A stretch of 64,000 nt of DNA from Terriglobia bacterium (GTDB taxonomy: Bacteria; Acidobacteriota; Terriglobia; Terriglobales; Acidobacteriaceae), in the NCBI GenBank assembly GCA_020073185.1, contig JAIQFT010000025.1:28415-92414 (forward strand), given 5' to 3'. How positions within the stretch are numbered: the first letter of the stretch is position 1; each line of letters opens with the position of its first letter. Below the pieces are notes generated by a model. That model searched no databases, was not told the DNA's origin, and worked only from the letters and a program-made list of their open reading frames with translations. A program made the position numbers and the translations under genes. Shown here piece by piece: positions 9,909-44,221 of this stretch.

Positions 9909-9924
9909 GTTCAACATATTGAAC
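9909..9924. promoter_or_regulatory. Putative IclR operator, site 2 (central)
   Basis: GTTCAACATATTGAAC, the strongest of the three sites. With one extra base on each side (TGTTCAA-N4-TTGAACA) it has perfect 7-bp arms. Centre is 74 nt from site 1 and 70 nt from site 3. Confidence 0.65.
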
Positions 9925-9978
9925 ACAAATTCATGATCACGTACACCCAAGTTTTCGATTGGCGTAACCAAGGTACTC

Positions 9979-9994
9979 GTTCAGCATATTGAAC
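9979..9994. promoter_or_regulatory. Putative IclR operator, site 3 (iclR-proximal)
   Basis: GTTCAGCATATTGAAC, same GTTCA-N6-TGAAC pattern, centre about 53 nt before the iclR ATG at 10040. It overlaps an alternative in-frame TTG at 9989, which argues against that start. Suggests autoregulation. Confidence 0.6.
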
Positions 9995-10039
9995 AATAGT
10001 TCGACCCGCGGTAGCATAGGGCCGGCGACGCCCAAAACT

Positions 10040-10840: not shown

Positions 10841-10863
10841 TTTCAAGCGCCAGCCGGGGCTGC

Positions 10864-13215: not shown

Positions 13216-13438
13216 GGACTGTTTCTCTCCTCAATTTTTATTCAGGGGCGCGCCGGGCACGCAAGGGAAGAAAGATGCAGTAGTAGAGATGCGCGACGGC
13301 CGGGCGCCGACGGAAAAAATATCGCAAGGCATCAGAGGAAACCCGTCGTTTCTGGCGCAGCAAAAAGGGGGCCGCCGGCGCGATCGCCAACGAGCCCCTG
13401 AGTGCCTATAAGCAGATTGCTGCTCACACCATCGTTAC

Positions 13439-14791: not shown

Positions 14792-14836
14792 CCGTACACC
14801 TCCGAAGGCGATAAACTCCGGTCCCCGACGGTCCCG

Positions 14837-14868
14837 TTAAAACGAGGCCACCGCCGAAGCAGGTGGCC
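14837..14868 (-). terminator. Hairpin between oxidoreductase beta gene and transporter gene
   Basis: On the minus strand GGCCACC-TGCTTCGGC-GGTGGCC is followed by TCGTTTT. It looks like a partial intrinsic terminator that could reduce read-through into the transporter gene. Confidence 0.5.
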
Positions 14869-14876
14869 CCTACACA

Positions 14877-15893
14877 TTAGACTTCCTTCGCGATCTCGTG
14901 CCGGAGGGGAATAATACCGGGTACGAGCCAATTGGTCCACATGTCGTCTATCTTGCTCTGGAAGAACTCCGTGTCCTCGTCGATAAAGTGGTTGAACCTG
15001 CCCTGCTTCTCCAGGTAAACCTTGACCGGGAGGCGCTTGAATTTACCGTCGGCAATCTGTTTGGATTTGCCGTACAGCTTCACGACGCCGTTCTCGATCT
15101 CGTACAACGGCCAGATGCCGGTGTTGACGGCCAGTTCGCCCAGCTCGTGCGCCTGGACGGGATCGAAATCCCAGCCCTTGGGGCACGGGTTCAGGCAGTG
15201 CACAAACGTCGGGCCACCGATGCTGAGGGCGCGGCGGACAACGTTCATGGCCTGCAGCGCGTAGGACGTGGAAATGGTCGCTACGTAGCGGCAGGTGGGA
15301 TGCCCGATGGCCATCAGGGGAGCGACATTCTTTTTCCAGCGGTTGTTCATAATGCGCCGCTTCTTCCCCGGGAAGCTGAACGAGCTGTTCGCGCCGTAGG
15401 GTGAAGTGCCGGAAATCTGAATGTCGGTGTTGGCGTACGACTCGTTGTCGTACATGAGGATGAGGAGGTTGTAATCCGGATGGGTCAGAGTCGCCGAGAT
15501 GGCGGCCAGGCCCATATCCGCGCCACCGCCGTCGCCGCAGAAGGCGATGACGTTGATGGGCTCATCCTTCATCTTGCCCTTGCGCATCTGCGCCTTGAAG
15601 GCAGCAGCGGCGCCCAGCACGGCCGAGCCGGAGCTACCCAGTTGCGTATGCATCCAGGGCACGCCCCAAGGCGTGGTGTAATACGAGGTGTTGGCCACGT
15701 ACATGCAGCCGGTGCTCCCCAGGACGATGGTCCTGGGGCCGGCGGCCTTGGCCAACAGCCGCATCATCTGGGCCGACTCGCAGCCTTGGCAGGTGCGGTG
15801 GCCGGAAGTGTAGTACTCGTTGTGGGGGACTTTCTTGACACCCTTGAAGTCCTCCAGGTTTTGGGTCGGTTTTTCGTCTACAAATATAGGCAT
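14877..15893 (-). CDS. Oxalate oxidoreductase-type 2-oxoacid:ferredoxin oxidoreductase, beta subunit
   Basis: 338 residues. This is the thiamine diphosphate-binding subunit, with GDGGGADMGL plus NLLILMYDNESYANTD for Mg-TPP. Cysteines in RTCQGCESAQM, GSTGCMY and HCLNPCP are placed to bind the proximal 4Fe-4S cluster. It follows the alpha-subunit gene by 44 nt in the order gamma-delta, alpha, beta. In Moorella oxalate oxidoreductase this subunit pairs with alpha to decarboxylate oxalate to CO2 without CoA. Substrate assignment rests mainly on the alpha subunit and the OxlT-like neighbour. Confidence 0.82.
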   Translation of the reverse strand: MPIFVDEKPTQNLEDFKGVKKVPHNEYYTSGHRTCQGCESAQMMRLLAKAAGPRTIVLGSTGCMYVANTSYYTTPWGVPWMHTQLGSSGSAVLGAAAAFKAQMRKGKMKDEPINVIAFCGDGGGADMGLAAISATLTHPDYNLLILMYDNESYANTDIQISGTSPYGANSSFSFPGKKRRIMNNRWKKNVAPLMAIGHPTCRYVATISTSYALQAMNVVRRALSIGGPTFVHCLNPCPKGWDFDPVQAHELGELAVNTGIWPLYEIENGVVKLYGKSKQIADGKFKRLPVKVYLEKQGRFNHFIDEDTEFFQSKIDDMWTNWLVPGIIPLRHEIAKEV

Positions 15894-26548: not shown

Positions 26549-28552
26549 TTGCCACAGCGGCACGAACCAAGGGGCGCCACTTCCGTCTTGCGTTGGTCCC
26601 ATCTTGCCATGGCGACTGTGGTGTGCCTTGGTACAGCGGCCAGCCTTGTGCTGTGCGCCGCCCCGGCGCGGGCGCAAATTTCTCCCGGACTGCTCTCCCG
26701 ACCGCACAGCTTCCTGAACGGCGACACCAATTGCACCAGCTGCCACCGCCTCGGCGGTCAAGCCACGTTCAAATGCCTGGAGTGCCACACCGAAATCGGC
26801 AGCCGGATTGCCGCCGGGCGCGGCTTTCACGCGCGCATCGTGGCGAAAGAGGCCGGCAGCCAGAGCTGCGCCGGTTGTCACTCCGAACACAACGGCGAAG
26901 AGTTCGCGATCATCAAATGGGCGCCGTCGCAACAGCAGTTCGATCACGGGAAAACCGGTTGGGCGCTGACGGGGAAACATGCTGCGCTGAGCTGCAACCG
27001 CTGCCATACGCCAGCCAACATCGTGACCGGCGAGAAGCCGCTGATTAAGGTCAAAGACCTGAGCCGAACCTATCTGGGCTTGTCCTCCGATTGCGCCGGC
27101 TGCCATAAAGATCCGCACCTCGGGCAACTGGGCCGCACCTGTGAGCAGTGCCACAGCACCAACGACTGGAAGGCGCTGGCAGGCTTCAATCATGCGCGCA
27201 CCCGCTTCGCCCTCACCGGCGGCCACGCGCGCGTCGCCTGCCAGAAGTGCCACACGCCGACCGAGCCGGGCGGAGTACCGCGCTGGAAGGGTCTCGCCTT
27301 CGATCGCTGCACCGCGTGCCACGCGGACCGGCACCGCGGAACGTTTGTCAATTCCTGCCAATCGTGTCACAGCACCGTCACCTGGAAGTCGGTACCGGCG
27401 ACGACTCTGGCGGGCAAATTTGACCACGCAACGACGAAGTACCCTCTACGGGGCAAGCACGCACTGTTGGGCTGCGAGCAATGCCACGCGGCGGGAGATT
27501 TCAAAAAGCCGATCGCCTTCCAGCAATGCTCCGACTGCCATCGTCCCGATCCGCACAGCGGGCAATTCGCCCAGCGCGCGGACGCCGGCGAGTGCTCATC
27601 GTGCCACACCGTGGAGGGCTTTAAGCCGGCTAAATTCGGCCTCGCCGACCACAACAAGACCTACCCGCTGCAGGGCAAGCACGCTTCGGTTGGTTGCGAG
27701 AAGTGCCATCTCCCGGCGGGCAAGGCGACGCTGTACCGCCTCAAGTTTGCCCAGTGCACCGACTGTCATCGCGATGTCCACGAACGGCAGTTCGCCACCG
27801 CTCCCATCCTGAATCGCTGTGAGTCGTGTCACTCGTTGCAGGAATTCCGGCCGTCAACATTTACTCAGGCGCGCCACCAGAGCTCGCGTTTTCCGCTGAG
27901 CGGGGGTCACGTGGCGGTCGCCTGCAGCGACTGTCATCGACCCCTGGGAGGGCCCGGCCTGGAAAGGGTGGCGCGCTATCGTTTTGAGGACCGCTCGTGC
28001 ACCACATGTCACCGCGATCCGCATCGCGGGCAATTTGCCGAGCGCATGCGGATGGTCGCCGGCAACGGCAAGCCCGCCGGCTGCCAAGCCTGCCACTCCT
28101 TGGCCTCCTGGAAAGAATTGGCGGGCTTCGATCACGCCTCGACGGAATTTGCCCTGCTGGGCGCGCATCGCGCCGTCGCCTGCGCCGATTGTCACCGTCC
28201 GCCCAACCTGGAGACCACGCTGGCCGACGTTAACTTCGGCGTGGCACCAAGAACATGCGAGGGTTGTCACCGGAGCCCCCACGGCGGGCAGTTCGTGGTG
28301 GCCGGGGTGGCGGAGCAATGCGCCTCGTGTCACAACAGCAACAAATGGAAACCCTCGCTATTTGATCACAATACCCGCACTCGCTTCCCGCTGGAAGGGG
28401 TACACAAGAACGTGCGCTGTGCGCGGTGCCATAGCAGTACCAGGCTGGTGGATGGCGACGAAGTGTTGTTCTACAAGCCCACGCCAAGGGAATGCGCGGC
28501 CTGCCACGGCCCTGCCGTGACGCCAACTTCCGCCACGGCGGCCCGCCGCTAA
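26549..28552 (+). CDS. Exported 23-haem c-type cytochrome
   Basis: 667 residues with 23 CxxCH motifs from CTSCH near residue 62 to CAACH near the end. The N-terminal hydrophobic stretch MATVVCLGTAASLVLCAAPA then ARAQ is a signal peptide. The annotated TTG at 26549 is the outermost start; TTG 26588 or ATG 26609 would leave a cleaner signal peptide. Between the haem motifs, recurrent FxHxxTxFxLxGxHxxxxC units supply extra His for bis-His ligation. It should act in the periplasm or at the outer membrane as an electron wire. First gene of the cytochrome locus. Confidence 0.93.
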   Translation: MPQRHEPRGATSVLRWSHLAMATVVCLGTAASLVLCAAPARAQISPGLLSRPHSFLNGDTNCTSCHRLGGQATFKCLECHTEIGSRIAAGRGFHARIVAKEAGSQSCAGCHSEHNGEEFAIIKWAPSQQQFDHGKTGWALTGKHAALSCNRCHTPANIVTGEKPLIKVKDLSRTYLGLSSDCAGCHKDPHLGQLGRTCEQCHSTNDWKALAGFNHARTRFALTGGHARVACQKCHTPTEPGGVPRWKGLAFDRCTACHADRHRGTFVNSCQSCHSTVTWKSVPATTLAGKFDHATTKYPLRGKHALLGCEQCHAAGDFKKPIAFQQCSDCHRPDPHSGQFAQRADAGECSSCHTVEGFKPAKFGLADHNKTYPLQGKHASVGCEKCHLPAGKATLYRLKFAQCTDCHRDVHERQFATAPILNRCESCHSLQEFRPSTFTQARHQSSRFPLSGGHVAVACSDCHRPLGGPGLERVARYRFEDRSCTTCHRDPHRGQFAERMRMVAGNGKPAGCQACHSLASWKELAGFDHASTEFALLGAHRAVACADCHRPPNLETTLADVNFGVAPRTCEGCHRSPHGGQFVVAGVAEQCASCHNSNKWKPSLFDHNTRTRFPLEGVHKNVRCARCHSSTRLVDGDEVLFYKPTPRECAACHGPAVTPTSATAARR

Positions 28553-28880
28553 CCCTCAGATTCACAACGGGATTTTGTCCCGGACGGGTTTAAGGAGTTC
28601 TTAGTAGTGGAAACTGGCTTGGGTAACTTTTTCTCGATTGATGTGAAATTTTCGCGGCTGGGGCGGAAGCAATCGCGGTGCGCTTACATCACACACCTTT
28701 GTGAGGTGGCCACCAATACTGCGTGTTCCGCGATCTTCCACAAGCGCTTCGAATTGTGCCAGTTCGCGGCCCGGGAATTGCAGTGCTGCTCTCCACTAAA
28801 CCTTCCCTCGGGGTGCACTTAGGGAGCAGCTGCAACGCTGGGCTGAATCTAGAAATTTGATTCCAACTGGAGAGTGGAAG
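28553..28880 (+). other. Intergenic region between the two cytochrome genes
   Basis: 328 nt. A possible short reading frame from GTG at 28607 (71 codons) has a Shine-Dalgarno-like AAGGAG 11 nt upstream, but odd composition and no recognisable motif, so I do not call it. A separate promoter for the 40-haem gene could lie here. No terminator was identified. Confidence 0.4.
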
Positions 28881-31880
28881 TTGCTTTCGATGCTAGCACT
28901 GCAACTAGTGCTGCTGGTGGCGCCGGCGATAGGCAGCCCGGCACCGCCACCGCAAACCGCTCCAAACACACGCAGTCCCCACGGCGCGCTGAATATTCCC
29001 TGCCAGAATTGCCACACGTTCTCAGGCTGGAAGCCCATTCGCAGCATGCCCGAGTTCGATCACAGCAAAACCCGCTATCCACTGCGCGGCATGCACAAGA
29101 ACGTGGCCTGCGTGGAATGCCACAGCAATGCCGTGTTCACCAACGTCGGGAACAAGTGTGCCGACTGCCACGCCGACATCCATCGCCGCCAGATGGGGGC
29201 GCAGTGCGAGCAGTGCCACAGCGTGAACGGTTGGACGGTATCGCTCAAGTCCATCAGCGAGCACCAGAACCGCTTTCCGCTCATCGGAGCGCACGCGGTC
29301 ACAGATTGCGAGTCCTGTCATAAAGGCGCCGCGGTGGGACAGTTCAAGGGGCTGTCCACCGATTGCGTCAGTTGCCACATGACCACGTTCACCAATACGA
29401 AGTCTCCCAGTCACGTGGCCTTGAACTTCTCTACAAACTGCCAGCAATGCCACCGGTCGATGGACTCGTGGGCAGGAGCGACCTTCAATCACCTGGCTTT
29501 CACCGGCTTTGCGCTCACCGGCGCGCACGCCACCCTGGACTGCAGTGTGTGCCACGTCGGCGGTCGCTACCAGGGCACTCCGTCGAACTGCACTGGCTGC
29601 CACCTCAAGGACTACAACGGCGCCAAGGATCCTAATCACGCCCAGATCGGCTTCCCGCAGACCTGCTCGCAATGCCACAGCACCGCTACCTGGCTGGGAG
29701 CAACGTTCAATCACGCGATCACCGGGTTCGCCCTCACGGGAGCCCACGCGAGCTTGAGTTGCTCGTCGTGCCACACCGGCGGAACGCTGACGGCAGCCAA
29801 CACCACCTGCGTGTCCTGCCACCTGACGGATTTCCAGAAAACCACGAATCCCAACCACGCGTTGATCGGCTTCCCAACCGACTGCTTGTCGTGCCACAGC
29901 ACCACCAATTGGCAGGGGGCAAAGTTTGACCACTCGACGACGGGCTTTGCGCTCACCGGCGCGCACGCGAGCCTGAATTGTTCGTCATGCCATACCGGCG
30001 GAACGTTGACTGCAGCCAGCACGAACTGCGTGTCTTGCCACCTGAAGGATTTCCAGGGCACTACGAATCCGAACCATGTGGCGGGCGGATTTGCGCAGCA
30101 GTGCAACCTCTGCCACACGACGACCGCCTGGCAGCCGGCCACGTTTGACCACAGCAAGTCGGGCTTCTCGCTCACCGGCGCGCATGCCACCGTCGCCTGC
30201 GCGCAGTGCCACGTGAACGGAAACTACAACCTCACGTCGGCGGCGTGCGCCACGTGCCACCTGACGGATTTCCAGAAAACCACGAATCCGAATCACGCGT
30301 CGGTCGGCTTCCCGACGGACTGCTCGGTCTGCCACAACACCACGAACTGGCTGGGGGCGACGTTCAACCACTCGACGACCGGCTTCCCCCTCACCGGCGC
30401 GCACGCGAGCCTGACTTGCTCCTCGTGCCACACGGGTGGCTCATTATCGGCGGCCAATACGAACTGCGTGTCCTGTCACCTGAAGGATTTCCAGGGCGCT
30501 ACGAATCCAAACCACGTGGCGCTAGCGTTCCCACAGCAGTGCAATACCTGCCATACGACGACGGCATGGCAGCCCGCGACCTTCAATCACGCGACGACGG
30601 GCTTCCCGCTGACCGGCGCGCACGCCACCGCCACCTGCACTCAGTGCCACACCAACGGAAACTACAACATCACCTCAGCAGCCTGCGCGACGTGCCACCT
30701 GAAGGATTACCAGAGTACGACGAATCCGAACCACACGGCCGTCGCCTTCCCCCAGACCTGTGAGCAATGCCATAGCACGACGAACTGGCTGGGCGCGACC
30801 TTCAACCACGCGACGACGGGCTTTGCGCTCACCGGCACGCACGCCACCCTGGCTTGCTCGTCGTGCCACGGAGGCACTCCATTAGCGGCCGCCAATGCGG
30901 CCTGCGCGTCCTGCCACCTGAAGGATTACCAGGCTACGACGAATCCGAGTCACGTGGCAGTCAGCTTCCCGACGGACTGCTCGCAATGCCACAGCACCAC
31001 CAACTGGTCGGGGGCGACGTTCAACCACGCGACGACGGGCTTTGCGCTCACCGGCACGCACGCCACGCAGGCTTGCTCGGTGTGCCACGCAGGCACCCCA
31101 TTAACGGCAGCCAACGCGGCGTGCGCGTCCTGCCACCTGAAGAATTACCAGGGTACGACGAATCCGAATCACGCCGCGGTCGGCTTCCCGACGGATTGTT
31201 CGTTGTGCCACAGCACCACCAACTGGTCGGGGGCGACGTTCAACCACGCGACGACGGGCTTTACTCTCACCGGCGCGCACGCCACCCTGAATTGCTCGGC
31301 GTGCCACGGCAGCACCCCATTAAGTGCCGCCAACACCACCTGCGTGTCCTGCCACCTCAAGGATTACAACGGGACGACGAGTCCGAACCACGTGACGTTA
31401 GCGTTCCCACAGACGTGCGAGATCTGCCATACCACCACGGTGTGGCAGCCGGCTACGTTTGACCACAGCAAGACGGTGTTTCCGCTGACCGGCGCGCATA
31501 CCAGCGTGGCCTGCGCCCTTTGCCACATCGGAGGAAATTACACCACCACGCCCACTGACTGCTATTCGTGTCACAAGGCCGACTACACGGGCGTCACCAA
31601 CCCGAACCACATCGCGGCGGGATTCCCCACCACCTGCCAGACGTGCCACACCACCACCTCGTGGGCCGGCGCAACCTTCAATCACACTTGGTTCCCGATC
31701 CCGCACCACAGCGCGAAGCTGTGCAGCGACTGTCATACCAACCCTTCCGATTACACGGTATTCGTGTGCACCAGTTGCCACACGCAGGGACCGACGACCT
31801 CGGAGCACTCCGGGGTCAAGGGATTTGTCTGGAACAGCGCGAATTGTTATGCCTGCCACAAGAACGGTGGCGGGGGGTAA
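28881..31880 (+). CDS. Exported 40-haem c-type cytochrome built of tri-haem repeats
   Basis: 999 residues from the TTG at 28881, which has GGAGAG 6 nt upstream (alternatives: TTG 28857, ATG 28890). A signal peptide (MLALQLVLLVAPAIGS) is followed by 40 CxxCH motifs. The first seven are irregularly spaced; from about residue 187 a 73-residue unit carrying three haem motifs recurs with constant spacing, and the end adds CSDCH, CTSCH and CYACH. Each unit also has conserved non-motif His in F(N/D)H, TG(A/T)HA and NP(N/S)H, matching three distal ligands. The product is likely a long haem wire in the periplasm or outside the cell. It lies 26 nt before the barrel gene. Confidence 0.94.
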   Translation: MLSMLALQLVLLVAPAIGSPAPPPQTAPNTRSPHGALNIPCQNCHTFSGWKPIRSMPEFDHSKTRYPLRGMHKNVACVECHSNAVFTNVGNKCADCHADIHRRQMGAQCEQCHSVNGWTVSLKSISEHQNRFPLIGAHAVTDCESCHKGAAVGQFKGLSTDCVSCHMTTFTNTKSPSHVALNFSTNCQQCHRSMDSWAGATFNHLAFTGFALTGAHATLDCSVCHVGGRYQGTPSNCTGCHLKDYNGAKDPNHAQIGFPQTCSQCHSTATWLGATFNHAITGFALTGAHASLSCSSCHTGGTLTAANTTCVSCHLTDFQKTTNPNHALIGFPTDCLSCHSTTNWQGAKFDHSTTGFALTGAHASLNCSSCHTGGTLTAASTNCVSCHLKDFQGTTNPNHVAGGFAQQCNLCHTTTAWQPATFDHSKSGFSLTGAHATVACAQCHVNGNYNLTSAACATCHLTDFQKTTNPNHASVGFPTDCSVCHNTTNWLGATFNHSTTGFPLTGAHASLTCSSCHTGGSLSAANTNCVSCHLKDFQGATNPNHVALAFPQQCNTCHTTTAWQPATFNHATTGFPLTGAHATATCTQCHTNGNYNITSAACATCHLKDYQSTTNPNHTAVAFPQTCEQCHSTTNWLGATFNHATTGFALTGTHATLACSSCHGGTPLAAANAACASCHLKDYQATTNPSHVAVSFPTDCSQCHSTTNWSGATFNHATTGFALTGTHATQACSVCHAGTPLTAANAACASCHLKNYQGTTNPNHAAVGFPTDCSLCHSTTNWSGATFNHATTGFTLTGAHATLNCSACHGSTPLSAANTTCVSCHLKDYNGTTSPNHVTLAFPQTCEICHTTTVWQPATFDHSKTVFPLTGAHTSVACALCHIGGNYTTTPTDCYSCHKADYTGVTNPNHIAAGFPTTCQTCHTTTSWAGATFNHTWFPIPHHSAKLCSDCHTNPSDYTVFVCTSCHTQGPTTSEHSGVKGFVWNSANCYACHKNGGGG
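29439..31700 (+). repeat. Tandem 219-bp coding repeats (tri-haem modules)
   Basis: The first Cys codon of the C-x-x-CH(S/T/N)TTxW element falls at 29664, 29883, 30102, 30321, 30540, 30759, 30978, 31197, 31416 and 31635, an exact 219-bp step (73 codons). One earlier unit at 29439 is 225 bp before the next. Units alternate between a TNWxGA(T/K)F(N/D)H and an AWQPATF(N/D)H version in part of the array. The third position of codons differs between copies, so the copies are not recent clones but the spacing has been kept. Confidence 0.9.
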
Positions 31881-31906
31881 TCCAGCGGGAGTTGGGGAGC
31901 GTATCG

Positions 31907-33829
31907 ATGAAGTTTAGACCTGGCACTTACTACTGTTCGCGGAGCACGCGGGCAAGGCTGGCAACGCTGACCTGCATGCTCGCGATGGCGACGGCGGCGT
32001 CCGGCCAGCAGGAGTCCTCTCCGGCCGAGCAGACGCAACAGGTGCAGCGCCTGCCGCCAGTATCAGCAGCCGTGCAAACGGTGGCAAAAGCGCCGGAGTC
32101 GCAGCCCGCGACACAAACCGTCTCGCAGCCGCAGACAGTGGAACAAGCCCTCCCGCAGCCACAACAAGACTCGCCCGTCGTGCTCCCTCCCTCGGGTCTC
32201 CATGTGCAGACGATGTTCAAGGTGAAGTACGTCGCCGAGCACAGCGTGTATCTCAATGGCGGGCGCGCTGCCGGCCTCTCCGAGGGCATGAAGCTGACAA
32301 TCAGGCGTCGCGCCCAGCGCAGCGATGCGGCCAACGCGAGCGGCGCCGTGGACACTGCCGAGCTCGAGGTCGCCTCCGTGGCTTCGGCATCGGCGGTGTG
32401 CGAGGTGAAGAGCACGACGGCGGAGATTCACGCCGGCGATATCGCTTACCTCTCCGCGGCGGACGCCGAAACGCTGGCGCAAACGCGCGCCACCGGCGGA
32501 GCGCGCAAGTATCCCCAAGTGGTGACGTTCAGCGAAGGAGATCCGTTGGAGGAGGAAGTGCGTGACGAAGTGCCGCGCCCACCGTTGCCGGAAGTGAATC
32601 GCGCGCGCGGCCGGATCGGGTTGGATTTCAGCGGGATCAGCAGCCGCGGGTCGGTGGCGTCCAGCAGTTACCAGCTCGGAGGCGTGGTGCGCGCCGATGT
32701 GACCCGCATCGGCGGCAGCTACTGGAACCTGAGCGGATACTGGCGGGGCCGCCTCAACAACAGCTCTGCTCCCGGGCAACCCACGCTGTCCGATCTGATC
32801 AATCGCACTTATCACCTCAGCCTGAGCTACAACAACCCGCAATCGAAGTGGGTGGCGGGCGTGGGCCGGCTTTATCTGCCGTGGGCCAGCAGTCTGGACA
32901 CGCTCGACGGCGGCTATATCGGACGCAAGCTCGGGCACGGCGCGACCGCCGGCATCTTCGCCGGATCCACTCCCGACCCGACCTCTTGGGATTACAACCC
33001 GGACCGCCGCATCGCCGGTTCGTTCATCAATTTTGAGGGTGGCAGTTTCGACTCCGTTCACTACACCAGCACCTCCGGCATGGCGATGAGCAGCATCGGG
33101 TGGGTGCTGGAACGCCCGTTCATCTTCTTCGAAAACGGGATCTTCTATAAGCGCTACTTCTCGGTGTATCAATCGGCGCAGGCCGACGATCCGCGCCCGG
33201 TCCCCAGAGTCGCCAGGGCCGGGGCCGGTCTCAGCCGCAGCTTCATTACGGTCCGCTTTCAACCGCACCCGCGCATCTCTTTCGACCTGAACCACAACTA
33301 CTTCCGCGACGTGCCCACATTTTCGCAACAACTGATCGGCACCGGGCTGGTGGACAAATTTCTGTTTCAGGGGCTAAGCGCCGGGGTGCGCGTGGAAACG
33401 GTGCGGCACATCACCTTGTACGCCGATCTGGGACGCAGCAGCCGCAGCGGCGATCAGCGGAATTCCTGGAACGAACTCTACGGCATCACCTGGGACCGCA
33501 TCTGGATAACGGGACTCCGGGCCGACCTGCGTTTTTCCAAGTTCGACAGTTCCTTCGGCTCAGGTAGCTATCGCTCGCTGGCGTTGTCGCGCAACGTTGG
33601 CGAGCGCCTGCACTGGCAGGTACAGGCCGGCCGGCAGACCTTGGTGTCCAGTTTCACCGGCCAGGGCGCATCGCGTTTCGTGAACGGGTCGGTCGACGCC
33701 ACCTTCGGACACTACTTCCTCCAAGGCGATTACACCGCGCAGCGCGGCGCCCTGTTTGACTACGACCAGTGGATTATGACTTTCGGCTTCCGCTTCGATA
33801 ATCGCTCCCGGATGGGAGGCGTGAAATGA
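31907..33829 (+). CDS. Outer-membrane beta-barrel protein of the cytochrome locus
   Basis: 640 residues; ATG 31907 has GGGGAG 7 nt upstream. A signal peptide is followed by a Gln/Pro/Val-rich stretch to ~85, a small beta domain (~90-190: SVYLNGGRAAGLSEGMKLTI, GDIAYLSAAD), and from ~230 to the end alternating aromatic/polar strands of a porin-like barrel (YWNLSGYWRGRLNN, YHLSLSYNNPQSKWVAGVGR). It ends in WIMTFGFRFDNRSRMGGVK rather than a classic terminal Phe. By analogy with MtrB/PioB and porin-cytochrome conduits, it could sheath a multihaem cytochrome through the outer membrane. No clear sequence identity to MtrB is claimed. Confidence 0.75.
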   Translation: MKFRPGTYYCSRSTRARLATLTCMLAMATAASGQQESSPAEQTQQVQRLPPVSAAVQTVAKAPESQPATQTVSQPQTVEQALPQPQQDSPVVLPPSGLHVQTMFKVKYVAEHSVYLNGGRAAGLSEGMKLTIRRRAQRSDAANASGAVDTAELEVASVASASAVCEVKSTTAEIHAGDIAYLSAADAETLAQTRATGGARKYPQVVTFSEGDPLEEEVRDEVPRPPLPEVNRARGRIGLDFSGISSRGSVASSSYQLGGVVRADVTRIGGSYWNLSGYWRGRLNNSSAPGQPTLSDLINRTYHLSLSYNNPQSKWVAGVGRLYLPWASSLDTLDGGYIGRKLGHGATAGIFAGSTPDPTSWDYNPDRRIAGSFINFEGGSFDSVHYTSTSGMAMSSIGWVLERPFIFFENGIFYKRYFSVYQSAQADDPRPVPRVARAGAGLSRSFITVRFQPHPRISFDLNHNYFRDVPTFSQQLIGTGLVDKFLFQGLSAGVRVETVRHITLYADLGRSSRSGDQRNSWNELYGITWDRIWITGLRADLRFSKFDSSFGSGSYRSLALSRNVGERLHWQVQAGRQTLVSSFTGQGASRFVNGSVDATFGHYFLQGDYTAQRGALFDYDQWIMTFGFRFDNRSRMGGVK

Positions 33830-34608
33830 CCTTCGCCCGCCTCCTTCTCTATCCGCTCATGCTCTCGCTTGTCCTGCCCGCTTCCGCTACCGACGCGCTG
33901 CCGCCGGACCTGCTTGCTCGCACCCGTGCCCAGGTCGAAAGTTTCCTCAAGCTGTTCTCGGAGGTGCGCTGCACGGAAGTAGTCACGCAGACCAAGCTGG
34001 CGAAGAACGGCAAAGTCGAGCACCAGGAAAAATCGACCTATGATTACCTGGTTCTGGCGCAAGAATCGGGATCGTATCTGAACCTGCAGGAATCGCGCCT
34101 GGAACAGCAGGCGCCGCAAAGGAAAGCCAATGTCCCGCTGCTGGTGACCAACGGCTTCGCTACCCTGCTGCTGGTGTTTCATCCTTCCTACCAGGACAGT
34201 TTCGAGTTTTCTCCCCCGGAAACCGAGGTCGTCAACGGGCAGACGCTGGCCCGCATTGCATTCCGCCACATCCGCAACAAGCCGACGACCATGGAACTGG
34301 TGCTGCGCGGCCGGGAATATCCCCTCGACATCACCGGGAGTGCCTGGATTGATCCCGCTTCCGGCAGCATCGTCCGCATCGAGGCGGAACTGGCGCAGGC
34401 GATGGATGACATCGGTTTGCGGGTGCTGCGCACCGATGTACAATACGATCCAGTCCACGTGCGGGGTGTGGATGATTCGTTGCGCCTGCCGTCGCTGGCG
34501 ACGGTCGAGGTGCAAACTGCGCGCCAGCACTGGCGCAACATTCACCGCTTCAGCGGCTACCAGCATTTCTCCGTGGATGTAGAGGAGACCGTGAAGGCCC
34601 AAAAGTGA
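33826..34608 (+). CDS. Periplasmic LolA-like protein
   Basis: 260 residues. Starts at an ATG overlapping the barrel stop by 4 nt (ATGA). The signal peptide is MTFARLLLYPLMLSLVLPAS. The mature part is a beta-rich, LolA/outer-membrane-lipoprotein-sorting-like fold (KVEHQEKSTYDYLVLAQESG, TPLDITG-type strand EYPLDITGSAWIDPASGSIV, VRGVDDSLRLPSLATVEVQT). Such proteins carry lipids or lipoproteins. In this operon it might help place the barrel or a cytochrome lipoprotein in the outer membrane. The fold assignment is from pattern only. Confidence 0.65.
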   Translation: MTFARLLLYPLMLSLVLPASATDALPPDLLARTRAQVESFLKLFSEVRCTEVVTQTKLAKNGKVEHQEKSTYDYLVLAQESGSYLNLQESRLEQQAPQRKANVPLLVTNGFATLLLVFHPSYQDSFEFSPPETEVVNGQTLARIAFRHIRNKPTTMELVLRGREYPLDITGSAWIDPASGSIVRIEAELAQAMDDIGLRVLRTDVQYDPVHVRGVDDSLRLPSLATVEVQTARQHWRNIHRFSGYQHFSVDVEETVKAQK

Positions 34609-35543
34609 GTTCGACAACGATTGCACAGCCCGCGGCGCAAACCTCAGCGTCGCTCAGCGGCCACCGGCTGCGCCTGCTCGCCGGCTACGCCGCTGCCGTG
34701 ACCCTGATCGTGACTCTGGCGATCTACGGCGCCGATTACTACACCCTGGACATCACGCAGCGCCCGTTCTCGCCCAAGTACGCGCTACTGAAGCCCAGCG
34801 GCGTCATCGGCATTAAGCTAGGCTTGCTGGGCTTGAGCCTGTTCTTGATCATCTTCCTCTATCCGCTGCGCAAGCGGTGGAAATGGTTGTCGCAGCAGGG
34901 AATCACCAAGCACTGGATGGATTTTCACGTCCTGTGCGGTCTGTCAGCTCCGTTCGTGATCGCCTTCCATGCCTCGTTCAAGTTTCGTGGCTTCGCCGGC
35001 ACGGCGTTTTGGATCATGAGCGCGGTCGCGCTCAGCGGAGTCATCGGCCGCTACTTGTACAGCCAGATACCGCGCCGCGTGACGGCGGCGGAGCTATCGT
35101 TTAAGGAAGCGCGCGATCTGCAGGAGAAGTACACGGCTCAGCTTTCCTCGCAGCGCCTGATCCGTCCATCTTATTTGCGGGCGCTGTTTAGCGTCCCCAC
35201 CGAAGAGCAGGTGGCGCGGATGCCCATCGTGGTGATGTTGGCATACATGGTAGGCCTGGATTTGCTGCGGCCGTGGCGCATCGCTCGCCTGCGGCGCCGT
35301 ACCTTGACCAGGTGGCAATCGGTCAGCAGCCTGGGCGGCCTGTTGCGCACCACGAACCTGGAACTCGAGCAAGCCGTGGACATTGCCCGTGCCCAAGCTG
35401 CCCTGTCCAAGCGCCTGACCTTTTTCTCGCGCGTGCAAAAGGCGTTCCATCTCTGGCACGTCGTGCACAGGCCGTTCAGCTACACATTTGCCGTACTCGC
35501 CATCATTCACATCGCGGTCGTGTGGCTGTTGGGGTATATCTGA
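34605..35543 (+). CDS. Polytopic membrane protein, possible b-type cytochrome
   Basis: 312 residues from GTG 34605, overlapping the previous stop by 4 nt, with AAGG upstream. Six hydrophobic segments are visible. Paired histidines lie in or next to them: HWMDFHVLCGLSAPFVIAFH and, near the end, LWHVVHRPFSYTF with IIHIAVVW. This arrangement fits two b-haems as in ferric-reductase-like or b561-like proteins. Between segments 4 and 5 a ~55-residue cytosolic part is charged. It would link the ferredoxin/flavin protein encoded next to periplasmic haems. Haem binding is inferred. Confidence 0.7.
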   Translation: MSSTTIAQPAAQTSASLSGHRLRLLAGYAAAVTLIVTLAIYGADYYTLDITQRPFSPKYALLKPSGVIGIKLGLLGLSLFLIIFLYPLRKRWKWLSQQGITKHWMDFHVLCGLSAPFVIAFHASFKFRGFAGTAFWIMSAVALSGVIGRYLYSQIPRRVTAAELSFKEARDLQEKYTAQLSSQRLIRPSYLRALFSVPTEEQVARMPIVVMLAYMVGLDLLRPWRIARLRRRTLTRWQSVSSLGGLLRTTNLELEQAVDIARAQAALSKRLTFFSRVQKAFHLWHVVHRPFSYTFAVLAIIHIAVVWLLGYI

Positions 35544-35553
35544 GGGGCCGGGC

Positions 35554-36975
35554 TTGGATTCTCTGATTTCCTATGTGGTTGCGGCTGTGCTCGTCCTTTT
35601 TTTTGTGCACCTTTATCTCAGGGGCATCAGGAAAAAGGAGGAGGCGTGGCGCGCCTCGGCGGAAAAAGGAAAGTTATTTTCCGAGGGGCCCAAGGCCCAG
35701 CATCCGCACATCGACGTCACCTATTGCATTGGCTGTCAGAGTTGCACCGCGGTCTGTCCCGAGGGTGACGTGTTGGGGATGGTAGGGGGCAAGGCCGCCA
35801 TCATCAACGGATACAAGTGCATCGGCCACAGCCTGTGCGCGGAAGCCTGTCCCGTGGGCGCCATCACCATGGTCATGGCCACCCCGAGCATGGGCGCCGA
35901 GATGCCCAGCTTGACTCCGGAATATGAAACCAACATCACCAATCTTTTCATTATCGGGGAACTAGGCGGGCTGGCGTTAATCAAGAACGCCGTGAACCAG
36001 GGCCGCGCTTGCATCGATGCCATTGCCGACCGGCTGGCCGCAGGCTGGTTCACCGCCGGCTTGGGGCAGCCCGAGATCCCCGATATTCTGATCGTCGGAG
36101 CTGGTCCGGCCGGGATCGGCGCCTCGCTCCGGGCCATCGAGAAGAAGTTGAAGTACCTCACCATCGAACAGGACGAGGTCGGCGGCACCGTGTCCAAGTA
36201 CCCTCGCCAAAAACTGGTGATGACCACGCCAGTGGAATTTCCCATGTACGGGAAGTTCAGAAAGATGGAACTGTCCAAGGAAGACCTGCTCGCCTTCTGG
36301 CAGAAGGTAATGAAGCGCTCCGATTTCCAGGTCCGCAGCGGCGAGAAAGTGGATGACATCAAGAAGGACCCTGACGGCCTGTTCACGGTCACCACCTCAA
36401 AAGGCCAGTATCGTGCGCGAGCCGTGATACTGGCGCTGGGACGCACCGGCACTCCCCGCAAACTCGGGGTTCCCGGGGAGAACTTGCCCAAAGTCATGTA
36501 CCGGCTGATTGAGGCCGATCACTACGTGAACAAGAGAATTCTGGTGGTCGGGGGCGGCGACAGCGCGGTGGAGGCGGCCATGGGACTGGCGCATCAAGTC
36601 GGAAATCAGGTCACGCTATCCTATCGCCAGGAGCGCTTCAGCCGCATCAAGGCGCGCAACGAACAGCGCGTGGAAGAGTGCATCCGCTCCAACAAGCTCA
36701 AGGTGCTATTCAATTCCAGCCCCGTCGAGATCCGGGAGGACGCGGTGGTGATGGACGTCAAAGGCGAGCGCCAGGAACTCCCCAATGATTTTGTCTGGGT
36801 TTTTGCCGGCGGCACTCCACCCAATGATTTCCTGAAGAAAATCGGCGTGCAGCTCGGGACGCGAGACCTGACCTCGGAGGCGCGCGACGAAGCGCAACAG
36901 GTCGAGAAAGCCCGAAAAGAAATCCCGGCGGGCAGAAAAGACGATCCTACGGTCCCCTTGTTCGCGCAAGGCTAG
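35554..36975 (+). CDS. Membrane-anchored ferredoxin-domain FAD/NAD(P) oxidoreductase
   Basis: 473 residues from TTG 35554, with GAGGGG 6 nt upstream. Residues ~1-21 form a membrane anchor (LDSLISYVVAAVLVLFFVHL). Next are two iron-sulfur motifs: CIGCQSCTAVCPEG, complete, and CIGHSLCAEACPVG, in which His replaces the second Cys. A thioredoxin-reductase-like flavoprotein follows: FAD site ILIVGAGPAGIGASL, NAD(P) site ILVVGGGDSAVEAAMGLA, and WVFAGGTPPNDFL. No redox CxxC of thioredoxin reductase is seen. It likely passes electrons between ferredoxin or NAD(P)H and the b-type membrane protein. Last gene of the locus. Confidence 0.85.
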   Translation: MDSLISYVVAAVLVLFFVHLYLRGIRKKEEAWRASAEKGKLFSEGPKAQHPHIDVTYCIGCQSCTAVCPEGDVLGMVGGKAAIINGYKCIGHSLCAEACPVGAITMVMATPSMGAEMPSLTPEYETNITNLFIIGELGGLALIKNAVNQGRACIDAIADRLAAGWFTAGLGQPEIPDILIVGAGPAGIGASLRAIEKKLKYLTIEQDEVGGTVSKYPRQKLVMTTPVEFPMYGKFRKMELSKEDLLAFWQKVMKRSDFQVRSGEKVDDIKKDPDGLFTVTTSKGQYRARAVILALGRTGTPRKLGVPGENLPKVMYRLIEADHYVNKRILVVGGGDSAVEAAMGLAHQVGNQVTLSYRQERFSRIKARNEQRVEECIRSNKLKVLFNSSPVEIREDAVVMDVKGERQELPNDFVWVFAGGTPPNDFLKKIGVQLGTRDLTSEARDEAQQVEKARKEIPAGRKDDPTVPLFAQG

Positions 36976-37008: not shown

Positions 37009-39231
37009 TCACGCTTGAGCGACCTGCGAACCTCGGAGGAACTGGTATTTCAGGATGCGCGCGGCAACGCGCGGCGGGATAGCGGCGGCAGCATCGATGG
37101 TCCGCACAACCTCTCCTTGGCACGCCACTTCGACACAGGAATGTCCGGTCACCTCGGCCGGGAGAATAAGCTGGAGCTCAATCTGAGCGTTCCTGGACAC
37201 CGGCCGGTCGGTGCGAAACAGTACGCCAGATCGGCTGATGTTCTCGGCCGTGCCGGAGACCCATTCGGTTTCGCCCAGCATGCGGAACCGGAGCGGCTGT
37301 TGCATGGTGAAGCGCGGCGCTCGCGGGCTCTGCGCACGAACTCCCGCCGGTTGGACCGCCGTCTGCGTGTCGAGCACTTCGCGTACTTTGCGTGCCAGCG
37401 TTGCCGAGGTGAATGGCTTCTCCAGCAGGTTGGTCTGCGGATCCAGCGTACCATTGCGACCGATGGCATTCTCGATGTAGCCGGACATGTACAGCACCCG
37501 GATCCCGGGGCGATCGCTGGTAAGTTGCTCGGCCAACTCGCGACCGTTCATGCCTGGCATGATAACGTCGGTCAATAGCAGGTGAATGGGGCTGGGATGC
37601 AGGTGGCTGGCACGAATCGCAGCCTCGCCATTTCCCGCCTCCAGAACAGTGTACCCGCGCGCCTCCAGGAAAGCGCGAGCCAGGCTGCGCAGCTCGGGTT
37701 CATCCTCGACGATGAGGACCGTCTCCCGACCTTGCGGTGGCCGATGCTCGACTGCCTCTGGTGGTGCAGAATGGCCGGTCTCGGCGAAGTGCGGCAGGTA
37801 AATGTGGAACGTGGTCCCCTTGCCTACTTCACTTTCTGCCCATATGTGTCCACCACTCTGTTTGACGATGCCGTACACGGTCGACAACCCGAGGCCGGTG
37901 CCCTTCTGACCCTTAGTCGTGAAAAAGGGCTCGAACAGGTGGGATTGAGTTACAGCATCCATCCCGCAGCCGGTGTCAGAGATGGTGAGCAACACGCACT
38001 CGCCGGGCAGCACATTGGGGTGTTGGCGGCTATATTGCTCATCCAGGGAAACATTGGCCGTCTCGATGATTAGCTTGCCCCCATTGGGCATGGCATCGCG
38101 AGCGTTGACCGCCAGATTCATGATCACCTGCTGGATCTGGCCCGGATCGACGCGCACGTGTCCGGAGAGCGCGCCGGGAACAAAGATGAGCTTGATATCT
38201 TCGCCGATCAGTCGTGGCAACATCTTCAGGTGCTCCGCCACCACCGAGTTCAGATCCAGGACACGCGGCGTCTGCACCTGCTTGCGACTGAATGCGAGCA
38301 ACTGACGAGTCAGCGCAGCCGCGCGATCCGTGGCTTTGAGTATTTCATCGGCGGGACGGCGCAATTCGGAGTCCGTACCCAATTGCCCCAGCAGGAGTTC
38401 ACAGTAGCCGGAAATGACCATCAGCAGGTTATTAAAGTCGTGAGCGACTCCGCCGGCCAGCCGGCCTACGGCCTCCATTTTCTGCGCTTGCCGAAACTGC
38501 TGCTCTAAAGCATGTCGCTCGGTAACATCTTCCGCGACGAGGTCAAAAAACGTTTTTTGGCGGTCGTCCCGGATCGGTCGCCCGGAGAGGCGCACGACGA
38601 TGGGAGTATTGTCCCAGCGTTTCCATTCCGCCCGCACAGCGTCGAATTGTTTCAGCAACCCCTGATCATCCAGAACACTGCCGAACTGCTCGGGATCACA
38701 ATAGAAATCAGAGAGGCGCCGCTGCGACAGCGCGGTGGGCACGGGACATCGCAGCATGGCTGCCATGGCAGGATTGGCGTCCAAGAGCACGCCATCCGGG
38801 GTACAGCGGCAGATGCCATAGGGGGCGTTGGTCACCAGGGAGCGGAACTTCTCTTCCGATCGGTGCATTGCCCGCACGGCGGAATGCAAGCGCGCAAAGG
38901 ACCAGCAGATGAGCGCGGCCAAAATCGCGAACATCAGCGGGTGCACAACTTCCACCACGCGATACATGGCTCCCGGTGAGCGGGAAAGACGTATGTAACC
39001 GCCGCTCAGCAAGCAGGTTGCAGCCGTCAGCAGACCAGCCCTCCAGCCCGCAAGGCTGGCGCTGGCGATGACGGCAATGATGGAAACGCTGGTCCAGAGT
39101 TCGACGTGGTCGGGCGCGGCGAATGACACGCCCGCCGCGGTAGCGGCAACTAGCAGGGCGATAGTCCAGCGCAGCAGCCCGCTACCAGCCAGCCGTAGAA
39201 CTAGCTTTTGGCGTGAAAGGTCTGGGATCAA
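37009..39231 (-). CDS. Hybrid sensor histidine kinase with receiver and PilZ domains
   Basis: 740 residues from TTG 39231. Domains in order: membrane segments ~20-110 (MASE-like), PAS ~122-245 with FRSLVTNAPYGICRC, HisKA with VAHDFNNLL (His264), HATPase with NLAVNARDAM and GTGLGLSTVYGI, receiver ~495-610 with phospho-acceptor Asp555 (LLLTDVIMPG), and a PilZ-like domain ~635-735 (NISRSGVLFRTDRPV). The PilZ RxxxR loop is not exact, so c-di-GMP binding is uncertain. It converges on the cytochrome locus with 33 nt between stops and could sense a signal linked to surface or electron-acceptor state. A 58-bp tandem repeat spans its start. Confidence 0.88.
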   Translation of the reverse strand: MIPDLSRQKLVLRLAGSGLLRWTIALLVAATAAGVSFAAPDHVELWTSVSIIAVIASASLAGWRAGLLTAATCLLSGGYIRLSRSPGAMYRVVEVVHPLMFAILAALICWSFARLHSAVRAMHRSEEKFRSLVTNAPYGICRCTPDGVLLDANPAMAAMLRCPVPTALSQRRLSDFYCDPEQFGSVLDDQGLLKQFDAVRAEWKRWDNTPIVVRLSGRPIRDDRQKTFFDLVAEDVTERHALEQQFRQAQKMEAVGRLAGGVAHDFNNLLMVISGYCELLLGQLGTDSELRRPADEILKATDRAAALTRQLLAFSRKQVQTPRVLDLNSVVAEHLKMLPRLIGEDIKLIFVPGALSGHVRVDPGQIQQVIMNLAVNARDAMPNGGKLIIETANVSLDEQYSRQHPNVLPGECVLLTISDTGCGMDAVTQSHLFEPFFTTKGQKGTGLGLSTVYGIVKQSGGHIWAESEVGKGTTFHIYLPHFAETGHSAPPEAVEHRPPQGRETVLIVEDEPELRSLARAFLEARGYTVLEAGNGEAAIRASHLHPSPIHLLLTDVIMPGMNGRELAEQLTSDRPGIRVLYMSGYIENAIGRNGTLDPQTNLLEKPFTSATLARKVREVLDTQTAVQPAGVRAQSPRAPRFTMQQPLRFRMLGETEWVSGTAENISRSGVLFRTDRPVSRNAQIELQLILPAEVTGHSCVEVACQGEVVRTIDAAAAIPPRVAARILKYQFLRGSQVAQA

Positions 39232-40624: not shown

Positions 40625-43600
40625 ATGAAGAAGTCTATGGTGACAATCGACGGCAATGAAGCCGCGGCCTACGCTGCCTTCCACACCAGCGAAGTAATCG
40701 CAATTTACCCGATCACGCCATCTTCGAACATGGGCGAATTCGCCGACGAGTGGGCGGCCAAGGGCCAAACCAATCTCTGGGGCGTGGTGCCCACGGTGGT
40801 GGAGATGCAGAGCGAAGGCGGAGCAGCCGGAGCATTGCACGGAGCGATTCAGGCGGGTGCGCTCGGCACTACCTTTACCGCATCGCAAGGCCTGCTGCTG
40901 ATGATCCCCAACATGTACAAGATCGCGGGGGAGCTCACGCCCTGTGTCATTCACGTAGCGGCGCGCACCGTGGCCACGCACGCGCTCTCCATCTTCGGCG
41001 ATCACAGCGACGTGATGGCCTGTCGACAGACCGGATTCGCCATGCTGGCTTCCAACTCGGTGCAGGAGGCCATGGACCACGCTCTGATCGCGCACGCCGC
41101 GACTCTCGAGATGCGTATTCCTGTCCTCCACTTCTTCGACGGGTTCCGCACCTCGCACGAAGTGGCAAAAATCGAGGCATTATCCGTCGAAGATATGCGG
41201 GCGATGATGGATGAAGAACTGGTGCGCGCACATCGTCTGCGCTCGCTCTCCCCAGACCGGCCGGTTTTGCGCGGTACCGCCCAGAATCCCGATGTTTTCT
41301 TCCAAGCCCGGGAAGCCGGCAATCCGTACTACCTGGAATGTCCTGCCATCGTACAGAAGACGATGGACAGGTTCGCCAAGGTCGTGGGCCGTCGCTATAA
41401 CCTGTTCGATTATGTCGGCGCGCGGGATGCGGAGCGGGTCATCATCATGATGGGCTCCGGGGCGGAAGCAGCCGAGGAAACGGTGGAGTACCTGAATGCG
41501 AAGGGCGGCAAGGTCGGCCTGCTCAAGGTACGCTTGTTCCGGCCGTTCTCCGCCGAGCATTTCCTGGCGGCGCTGCCGCCGACGGTGAAGTCGCTGGCCG
41601 TCCTCGACCGCACCAAAGAGCCTGGTGCCACCGGCGAGCCGCTCTACGTTGACGTCGCGGTGGCGCTCAGCGAGTCACTGTCCCATGGCCAGGGGCCGCT
41701 CAAGTCCATGCCGCGGGTAATCGGCGGCCGCTACGGCCTTTCGTCGAAAGAATTTAATCCCGCCATGGTGAAGGCGGTGTTCGACGAACTCAACAAGGCG
41801 CAGCCCAAGAACCATTTCACCATCGGCATTATCGACGACGTCACCCGGACCAGCATCGAGTACGACCCGCAGTTTTCGACCGAGAGCTCCGATACCGTGC
41901 GCGCCGTTTTCTACGGGCTGGGATCGGATGGCACGGTTGGCGCCAACAAAAACTCCATCAAGATCATCGGCGAAGACACGGACTTCTACGCTCAGGGATA
42001 CTTTGTTTATGACTCGAAGAAAGCCGGCGCGATGACGGTGTCGCACCTGCGCTTCGGGCCGCGCCCGATTCGCTCCACCTACCTGATCACGCAGGCGAAC
42101 TTCGTGGCCTGCCACCAGTTCTCCTTTGTGGAGCACTTTGACGTGCTCAAGCTGGCGCAGCCCGGGGCCACGTTTCTGCTCAACAGTCCGTACCCTCCCG
42201 GCGAGGTCTGGGACCGGCTGCCCATCTCGATGCAGCAGGAGATTCTGGACAAAAAGCTGCGCCTGTACGTAATCGACGCCGACACAGTGGCGGAAGGCGC
42301 CGGCATGGGGCGCCGAATCAACACCGTTATGCAAACCTGCTTTTTCGCGATCAGCGGCGTGCTGCCGCGCGAGGAAGCCATTGCCGCCATCAAGAAAGCC
42401 ATTGAGAAAACCTACCTTAAACGCGGCGCAGCGGTCGTACAGAAGAACTTTGCGGCCGTGGACGCGACGCTGGCTCAACTGCACGAAGTCAAGCTGCCGG
42501 CGCAAGCGACGAGCCAATTCCGCCTGGCGCCGCCGGTGTCCGCGGCTGCGCCCGACTTCGTGCAAAGAGTCACCGCCCGCATCATTGCCGGAGAAGGCGA
42601 TCTTCTACCAGTCAGCGCACTTCCGGTGGACGGCACCTTCCCGTTCGGGACAGCACGATGGGAGAAGCGCAACATCGCACTGGAGATCCCGGTCTGGGAC
42701 GAGCAGCTTTGCATTCAGTGCGGCAAGTGTGTGTTGGTGTGCCCGCACTCGGTGATTCGCGCGAAAATCTACGATCCGGCACGCCTCGCAAGCGCGCCCT
42801 CCAGCTTTAAGTCGACGAAACCAAAATGGAAGGAGTTCGAAACCCAGCGCTACACCCTGCAGGTGGCGCCTGAGGACTGCACTGGGTGCGCCTTGTGCGT
42901 GCAGATTTGCCCGGCCAAGAGCAAGACGGAGGTCAAGCACAAGGCCATCAACATGGAGATGCAGGCGCCGCTACGCGCTGCCGAACGCGAGAACTGGGAT
43001 TTCTTCATGTCGCTGCCGGACACCGACCGCGAGCATCTCAAGACAGGGCAGGTAAAGGACGTTCAGTTGCTGCAGCCGCTGTTCGAGTTCTCGGGCGCAT
43101 GCGCGGGTTGCGGCGAGACGCCCTACATCAAGCTGATGACGCAATTGTTCGGCGACCATGCGGTGGTGGCCAATGCTACCGGTTGCTCGTCGATCTACGG
43201 CGCCAACCTTCCGACGACGCCATACACCATCAATTCCCAGGGCCGAGGGCCGGTGTGGTCGAATTCGTTATTCGAGGACAACGCCGAGTTCGGCTTGGGG
43301 CTCCGGCTGGCACTGAACAAGCAGGAAGAATATGCGCGCGACCTGTTGCGGCGGCTGGAAGGACGCATCGGCGGTGAACTGGTTACGGCGCTTCTGACCA
43401 CCGACCAGTCAGGCAACGACGGCATCAATCGGCAGCGCGAGCAGGTGCGGCTGCTGAAAGACAAGCTGCAAGGAGCCGATCTGACGGAGGCGCGCGATCT
43501 GCTGGCGATTGCCGACTCTTTGGTCCGCAAGAGCCTGTGGATCATCGGAGGGGACGGTTGGGCTTACGACATCGGCTACGGCGGCCTGGACCACGTGCTG

Positions 43601-44221
43601 GCCTCGGCACAGAATGTGAACGTGCTGGTGCTCGACACCGAGGTTTACTCCAACACCGGCGGCCAGCGCTCCAAGGCCACGCCGCGCGGCGCGGTAGCGC
43701 GTTTCGCCTTCGGCGGCAAGGAAACGGCCAAGAAAGACCTGGCGCTCATGGCGGTCAATTACGGCAACGTGTACGTCGCCCGTGTGGCCATGGGGGGCAG
43801 CGACACGCAAACGGTCAAGGCGTTCGAAGAAGCCGAAGCTTACCCGGGGCCTTCGCTGATCGTGGCCTTCTGTCACTGCGTTGCGCACGGATACGACCTG
43901 ATGTATGGCATGGACCAGCAGAAACTGGCGGTGCAAACCGGGTACTGGCCGCTGTTCCGGTATAACCCGGCGCTCAAACAGCAGGGCAAGAATCCTCTGC
44001 AACTGGATTCCCACGCGCCGAGCCTGCCGTTGCAGAAATACATGCTGAACGAAACGCGCTTCAACATCCTGAACCACGCGGATGAGGATCTGGCCAAGAA
44101 ACTTCTGCGGGAGGCCGAAGAAGATGTGCGCAGCCGTTGGGAACTGTACGAGAGGCTGGCCTCGCTTCCCGCTGGGGAAGATCTGAATGCCGCCGTGCTG
44201 GCGGCGAAAGGAGGCAAGTAA
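40625..44221 (+). CDS. nifJ: Pyruvate:ferredoxin (flavodoxin) oxidoreductase, single chain
   Basis: 1198 residues, normal length for the fused enzyme. Converts pyruvate and CoA to acetyl-CoA and CO2, reducing ferredoxin in the cytosol. Domain I has [16 protein letters not shown]. The ferredoxin insert has [14 protein letters not shown] (first Cys ~696) and [14 protein letters not shown] (~752). The proximal cluster/TPP domain has [11 protein letters not shown] (~826), [12 protein letters not shown] and [10 protein letters not shown]. The contrast with the oxalate enzyme at 14.9-18.4 kb (Thr instead of Arg in YPIxP) is clear. The stop overlaps the next start as TAATG. Confidence 0.97.

Follow-up and report, generated by a model that had tools for sequence, protein, structure and literature searches.

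A conserved acidobacterial gene set resembling a PCC3-type electron conduit, with its own predicted NAD(P)H or ferredoxin input

A stretch of 64,000 nucleotides from a Terriglobia bacterium (Acidobacteriota; contig JAIQFT010000025.1), hereafter called the window, carries six open reading frames (ORFs), designated A to F, that had been proposed in the original prediction to form an electron conduit from ferredoxin to the outside of the cell. All six were confirmed in the window at the positions given below, on the plus strand. They encode two predicted exported multihaem cytochromes (A and B), a predicted outer-membrane barrel (C), a small, probably exported protein (D), a predicted diheme b-type membrane protein (E) and a ferredoxin/FAD/NAD(P) protein (F). 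A is separated from B by 304 nt; from B onwards the genes are as tightly spaced as had been claimed, with 26 nt between B and C, overlaps of 4 nt between C and D and between D and E, and 10 nt between E and F (with TTG 35554 as start of F). A and B are the only multi-CXXCH reading frames of the window, every other frame containing fewer than two such motifs. C, D and E had no Pfam match above cut-off, and export of A, B and D is predicted by hydropathy.

The claimed counts of CXXCH motifs, 23 in A (26549..28552; start TTG 26549 or ATG 26609) and 40 in B (28857..31880; start TTG 28857 or ATG 28890), were confirmed. Both proteins match the Pfam families Cytochrome_C7 and Cytochrom_CIII over many stretches. 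Among the NCBIfam families, TIGR03508 (decahaem MtrA/DmsE) was not listed for A and scored 40.9 with B, below its cut-off of 192, while B reached 69 bits with TIGR04257 (cut-off 40). Counted from just before the first haem, histidines outside CXXCH number 23 in A for 23 haems and 41 in B for 40 haems, so bis-His ligation is possible for every haem; this supply would fit electron wires better than an enzyme with open haems. A is charged (Lys and Arg 12.1%, Asp and Glu 7.9%), whereas the charge of B is low (3.5% and 3.6%), with Thr, Ala, Asn, Ser, Gly and Gln making up 53% of its residues.

DNA repeat analysis of B revealed a tandem repeat of 219 bp, corresponding to 73 residues and three haems (29597..31392), and a six-haem super-period of 438 bp (29817-31516), the latter scoring higher. 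Sixteen B sequences were compared. In 15 of them an N-terminal cap with motif spacings 36-16-16-34-19-25 (shifts of at most one residue) is present, the sequence of L034 being broken there. The cap is followed by a body of 73-residue triheme units, spaced 32-16-25 or nearly so, and by a short C-terminal cap. The number of motifs is 3n+1 (19 to 49) in 13 of the 16 sequences, the window included; the exceptions are two sequences with 42 and 51 motifs, in which spacing is irregular and a motif seems lost, and the frameshifted L034. Across four genomes of the window's genus the numbers are 40, 34, 28 and 28, and lengths of B in draft genomes may be affected by repeat misassembly. B is likely to be an outer wire of triheme units with variable length. 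L034, from a draft genome, has a split A, a split B and a short C, the result of either decay or sequencing error.

For comparison, a table of 36 loci was compiled from 20 of the 46 E-positive genomes and from the first-round loci. These loci were chosen for having E, and L041 (E fragment), L042 (A paralogue), L043 and L044 (both with weak E) were omitted. A is a separate ORF with 23 motifs in 24 of the 36 loci, and it has 23 motifs also in the plasmid locus of Emticicia described below; elsewhere it is fused with B (five loci), split into 19 and 4 motifs (L034), absent or replaced by another set (three loci), or of a deviating motif count (three loci, given below). Three of the five fused ORFs are cut by contig ends. 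In all five the best match is A for haems 1 to 23 and B for the remainder, the split point at haem 23 having been chosen by us. Given the fusions, the charge difference and the constancy of A, we infer that A, inside, and B, outside, join into a single continuous path, A being likely a wire of near-fixed length that spans the periplasm. It has likewise been argued that 21-27 haems can span the periplasm (PMC10734462; this and the other papers cited were available in part, and statements about them refer to the text available). A paralogue of A in L042 (G000:C15:38000-57900, 7294-14920) adjoins genes for an 11-haem cytochrome, an NHL-repeat protein and an AMIN-domain protein.

The product of C (31907..33829) was modelled with 22 barrel strands at residues 233-631, a prediction that agrees with this gene having been named a barrel candidate originally. 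Its N-terminal part resembles the FlgT_C domain below cut-off, and its hydropathy profile shows no hydrophobic 19-mer above the threshold used. C had no match to PF11854 (MtrB_PioB) at E<=1, whereas another gene of the same genome matches at 4.7e-58. The alignments of C omit the frameshifted C of L034 and, in A5, many near-identical homologues. D (33826..34608), called probably exported from hydropathy, was found in 19 of the 36 loci, each with a strong-tier E. The label LolA-like for this protein is unsupported, as D has no Pfam match and none to LolA was obtained with D and 15 orthologues.

E (34605..35543; 312 residues) carries the motifs of the inner-membrane protein of PCC3, a conduit kind proposed by He et al. 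in 2017 (PMC5566968). The PCC3 inner-membrane protein was described there as having about 300 residues, and two WX3HX13H motifs with SGXXG between them were given for the proteins of both PCC3 and PCC4; in E these motifs are W104x3H108x13H122, S144GxxG148 and W284x3H288x13H302. No variation was seen at five histidines (H108, H122, H285, H288 and H302), either in alignments of 15 and 59 rows or in 33 of 33 full-length E rows that include other acidobacterial groups (numbering in this last alignment is shifted by 23 relative to E of the window). E had been called His-rich, a label that fails since only eight of its 312 residues are His, including the invariant five. PF01794 (Ferric_reduct) is listed at E<=0.1 in 24 of the 59 rows. 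One genome with an intact locus also has, away from it, a stray fragment of 96 residues that is 82% identical to E (L022; G002:C3:90269-90556).

F (35554..36975; start probably TTG 35554) consists of one predicted N-terminal transmembrane segment, a 4Fe-4S dicluster ferredoxin domain and a pyridine-nucleotide oxidoreductase domain of the thioredoxin-reductase-like FAD/NAD(P) type, as identified by hydropathy and Pfam; the earlier description as a membrane-anchored ferredoxin/FAD/NAD(P) oxidoreductase is borne out, and the two 4Fe-4S sites are present. Seven Cys are invariant in 13 sequences, all of them within the ferredoxin domain. The flavin domain has no invariant Cys in these 13 rows and therefore no redox-active Cys pair, and F scores 185 bits with the YpdA/thioredoxin reductase equivalog, below 340. 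In the second Fe-S site (35725-35850), C-x2-H-x2-C-x3-C, a His replaces Cys; it is invariant in 13 of 13 sequences and in Emticicia, an unusual ligand set. The Emticicia protein has Ser at the matching place of the first Fe-S site.

A flavoprotein of NAD(P)H type lies within the cluster in 31 of the 36 loci. It is F in 25 of them and an unrelated FNR-type 2Fe-2S reductase in six (L049, L052, L054, L055, L058 and L062; four of these six were scanned with Pfam and used for the model). The two folds were never found together in one locus. In L043 and L044, distant relatives of E adjoin NuoE/F-like genes, NuoG-like genes whose products have cNMP-binding domains, and genes for 10-haem and 9-haem proteins, with LVIVD repeats in L043; the Nuo-like genes are perhaps a third kind of input module. 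As two, perhaps three, unrelated modules of NAD(P)H type share one slot, the cytosolic partner of E would most simply be an NAD(P)H or ferredoxin oxidoreductase. The co-location in 31 of 36 loci favours NAD(P)H or ferredoxin over quinol as inner partner.

Of 61 relatives, 16 had a match to E at E<=0.001; the system therefore has a patchy distribution. The order A-B-C-D-E is kept in all 15 loci compared first, and F is next in 13; of the remaining two, L040 ends in E, and in L037, whose genome is a single contig, F lies about 4.6 kb upstream of A. Among 297 acidobacterial genomes, 31 have E and C, two E alone, three C alone and 261 neither, at thresholds (E <=1e-40 for E, <=1e-30 for C) set after the lists had been seen and with a C model that was built from loci found through E and may favour agreement. 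E and C share a contig in 22 of the 31 genomes, as counted by eye. The genes are thus conserved together, as the original prediction requires, with C present in 31 of 33 strong-E genomes; in other acidobacterial groups the E/F/A/B/C set is rearranged. Protein searches from the window at E<=0.001 gave at least 3875 relatives of C and at least 3892 of E. Among the best 120 of 908 proteins obtained with E of L063, three are named, from an Acidobacterium, Zixiibacteriota and Eisenbacteria. The set is also present in the named organism Occallatibacter savannae AB23.

Contrary to the original supposition, it is not purely acidobacterial. Plasmid pEMTOL02 of the cultured Bacteroidota strain Emticicia oligotrophica DSM 17448 carries the order ccsA-E-F-A-B-C (L069, 73540-95369). 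Its A and B have 23 and 40 motifs, B being 40% identical to that of the window over its length, and its E carries the double WX3HX13H and SGXXG pattern. For C the similarity is weak (23% over 312 residues; profile 2e-51), and no D was found at its place among the annotated neighbours. The ccsA product has 1028 residues, and the plasmid is typed as non-mobilizable in PLSDB. The locus is possibly a movable electron-transfer island.

The block is more than a chance assembly: the numbers of free His in A and B fit the haem numbers, and the gene set is conserved. Gene content, motifs, repeats, synteny, fusions and replacement of F are directly observed. With a probability of roughly 0.62, the six genes would encode a PCC3-type conduit across the whole envelope in which E receives its electrons from F on the cytoplasmic side instead of from quinol. 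In this scheme NAD(P)H or ferredoxin would deliver electrons to the FAD and 4Fe-4S sites of F, which would pass them to two b haems of E (H108/H288 inner, H122/H302 outer). They would then travel along A, the 23-haem periplasmic wire of near-fixed length, to barrel C and on to B, the low-charge outside wire whose triheme units differ in number between species, and B would reduce a mineral, humic or other extracellular acceptor. E and F together would thus act as a split NADPH oxidase/ferric reductase that feeds a wire instead of O2, and the claim that the set contains its own inner-membrane entry point is supported by its predicted content. Haem loading, topology, the cytochrome that enters the barrel, direction, donor and acceptor are putative throughout.

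Several observations weigh against this interpretation. A departs from 23 motifs in L052 and L054 (24 each) and in L053 (20), and B of L052 (27) and L054 (24), outside the 16-sequence set, breaks the 3n+1 rule. The structure model of C has a mean pLDDT (predicted local distance difference test) of 70.9, and Foldseek superposed it loosely (query TM-score about 0.3). Six hydrophobic peaks were counted in E, and not the five transmembrane helices published for the PCC3 protein, in which the motifs lie on helices 3, 4 and 5 (PMC5566968); following that description, five peaks are taken as helices and that at 203-221 is not. A Foldseek search with E returned no significant match, and E scores 15.3 bits with PF01794, below the cut-off of 28. 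L064 has E and F with no cytochromes nearby, and L065 has a different, 10-haem set.

Further points concern the electron donor. For the PCC3 inner-membrane protein, exchange with quinones was proposed from its cytochrome-b-like motifs (PMC5566968), PCC3 of Gallionellaceae is described in the available text without a reductase (PMC10734462), and in five of the 36 loci no reductase lies in the fetched stretch (that of L037 being just outside). The system might accordingly be an ordinary PCC3 on the quinone pool, with E exchanging electrons with quinol and F a neighbour with another role or a side entry. This is considered unlikely in view of the reductases within the cluster in most loci, with their two mutually exclusive folds, and of the contiguous E-F-A-B-C in Emticicia, a member of a different phylum.

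Outward flow of electrons through the proposed conduit is most likely, as energetics favour it. An inward conduit, fed by Fe(II), Mn(II) or a cathode and supplying biosynthesis with NAD(P)H or reduced ferredoxin via B-C-A-E-F, is highly improbable: reducing NAD(P)+ or ferredoxin with Fe(II) is energetically uphill, and the block has no recognised energy-coupling subunit. Such a conduit would agree with the finding of PCC3 in iron oxidisers (PMC5566968, PMC10734462) and with the reversible direction that Mto/Mtr conduits can have (PMC10734462). A periplasmic electron store or repair system, with the cytochromes as capacitor or feeding periplasmic reductases and C unrelated to electron transfer, is likewise highly improbable, given the company that C keeps with E and the lack of any recognised periplasmic enzyme gene in the set. 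An analogy would be MsrPQ, which pairs a ferric-reductase-like membrane protein with periplasmic repair. Large triheme-repeat cytochromes of Geobacter have also been discussed as periplasmic capacitors (PMC10138318).

At somewhat less than even odds, the sets with NAD(P)H or ferredoxin input may represent a quinone-independent class of extracellular electron transfer. It would combine a split NADPH-oxidase-like enzyme of the inner membrane, swappable cytosolic dehydrogenases (thioredoxin-reductase/ferredoxin, 2Fe-2S reductase, NuoEFG-like), low-potential electrons, a fixed 23-haem periplasmic ruler, a barrel of 22 strands and an expandable outer wire (16-51 haems), and it would spread between phyla, also by plasmid. 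In the literature available, the function and inner electron partner of PCC3 have not been demonstrated since it was proposed in 2017; a concrete candidate for that partner comes from the loci of Acidobacteria and Emticicia, namely NAD(P)H or ferredoxin acting via F or the FNR-type reductase and E. If flow is outward, many Acidobacteria could send electrons from NAD(P)H to minerals or humics and bypass quinones, and this would matter for the cycling of iron and carbon. Two design rules can be tested directly: A as a ruler of periplasm length and B as an expandable triheme wire.

Two other genes of the window adjoin the block: a PAS histidine kinase with receiver and PilZ domains (37009-39231, minus strand) and a pyruvate:ferredoxin oxidoreductase (40625-44221, plus strand; 1832 bits, cut-off 911), to which no match was found in 20 stretches of relatives tested. 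The same genome contains a second, MtrAB/PioAB-like conduit (L067; G000:C18:33000-52900) with genes for a 10-haem protein, the MtrB_PioB barrel (4.7e-58) and then 19-, 11- and 6-haem cytochromes.

With MtrCAB, PioAB and MtoAB the set shares a barrel and multihaem cytochromes; it differs in that C lacks an MtrB_PioB match, that the cytochromes have 23 and 40 haems and not 10, and that a separate MtrB_PioB cluster exists in the genome. B resembles the triheme-repeat nanowire cytochromes of Geobacter (GSU1996, TIGR04257) in its tandem triheme units and its score above the TIGR04257 cut-off, but it has 40 haems, fixed caps and His for all of them, whereas GSU1996 has one His-Met haem per domain. 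NADPH oxidases and ferric reductases share with E the two H-x13-H pairs, and an FNR-type partner is found in six loci; here, however, E falls below the Pfam cut-off, F is of thioredoxin-reductase/ferredoxin type and electrons would go to a c-type wire. Other conduits are on record for Acidobacteria: a Holophaga has the MtrB- and ExtB/E-type (PMC7399161), and three metagenome-assembled genomes have MtrABC genes (PMC9671151). In a literature search that reached few subscription papers and no bioRxiv, the acidobacterial set was found undescribed, apart from a possible overlap with Group-1 conduits of the Sterkfontein metagenomes (PMC13264449, 2026). These have a porin of about 20 strands, a large cytochrome and, near seven of 11 conduits, a ferredoxin-NADP reductase; their cytochrome is called decahaem (4-5 kb), and the available text mentions no haem-b membrane protein. 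They may correspond to the weak E relatives L043 and L044, with 9-motif proteins of 1287 and 1248 residues.

The gene set had been thought to match no known conduit, yet the PCC3 description fits it: a porin, a periplasmic cytochrome (median 21 haems), a repeat-rich extracellular cytochrome (median 34) and an inner-membrane protein (PMC5566968). E has exactly two WX3HX13H motifs and one SGXXG; the porin gene, in the window a fold prediction, is clustered with two large multihaem cytochromes; A with 23 motifs lies within the published 21-27 of the periplasmic cytochrome (PMC10734462); and B, with 40 motifs and triheme repeats, matches an extracellular cytochrome that is often larger, repeat-rich and rich in Thr, Ser, Ala and Gly. 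The order of Sideroxydans Slit_1446-1449 (inner-membrane protein, periplasmic cytochrome, extracellular cytochrome, porin) equals E-A-B-C of L059 and L063, and Emticicia has the same order with F between E and A. Differences are the rotated order in the window (A-B-C-D-E-F), the near-constant 23 motifs of A, the 22 predicted strands of the barrel (up to 42 by another method in PCC3 porins), the presence of D in about half of the loci, and the NAD(P)H/ferredoxin flavoprotein in most sets. By motifs, gene content and published descriptions, the conduit part is of a PCC3 type proposed in 2017, and the dedicated flavoprotein goes beyond the available description of PCC3. The locus is real, conserved and partly known, a PCC3 variant with its own predicted NAD(P)H/ferredoxin input.

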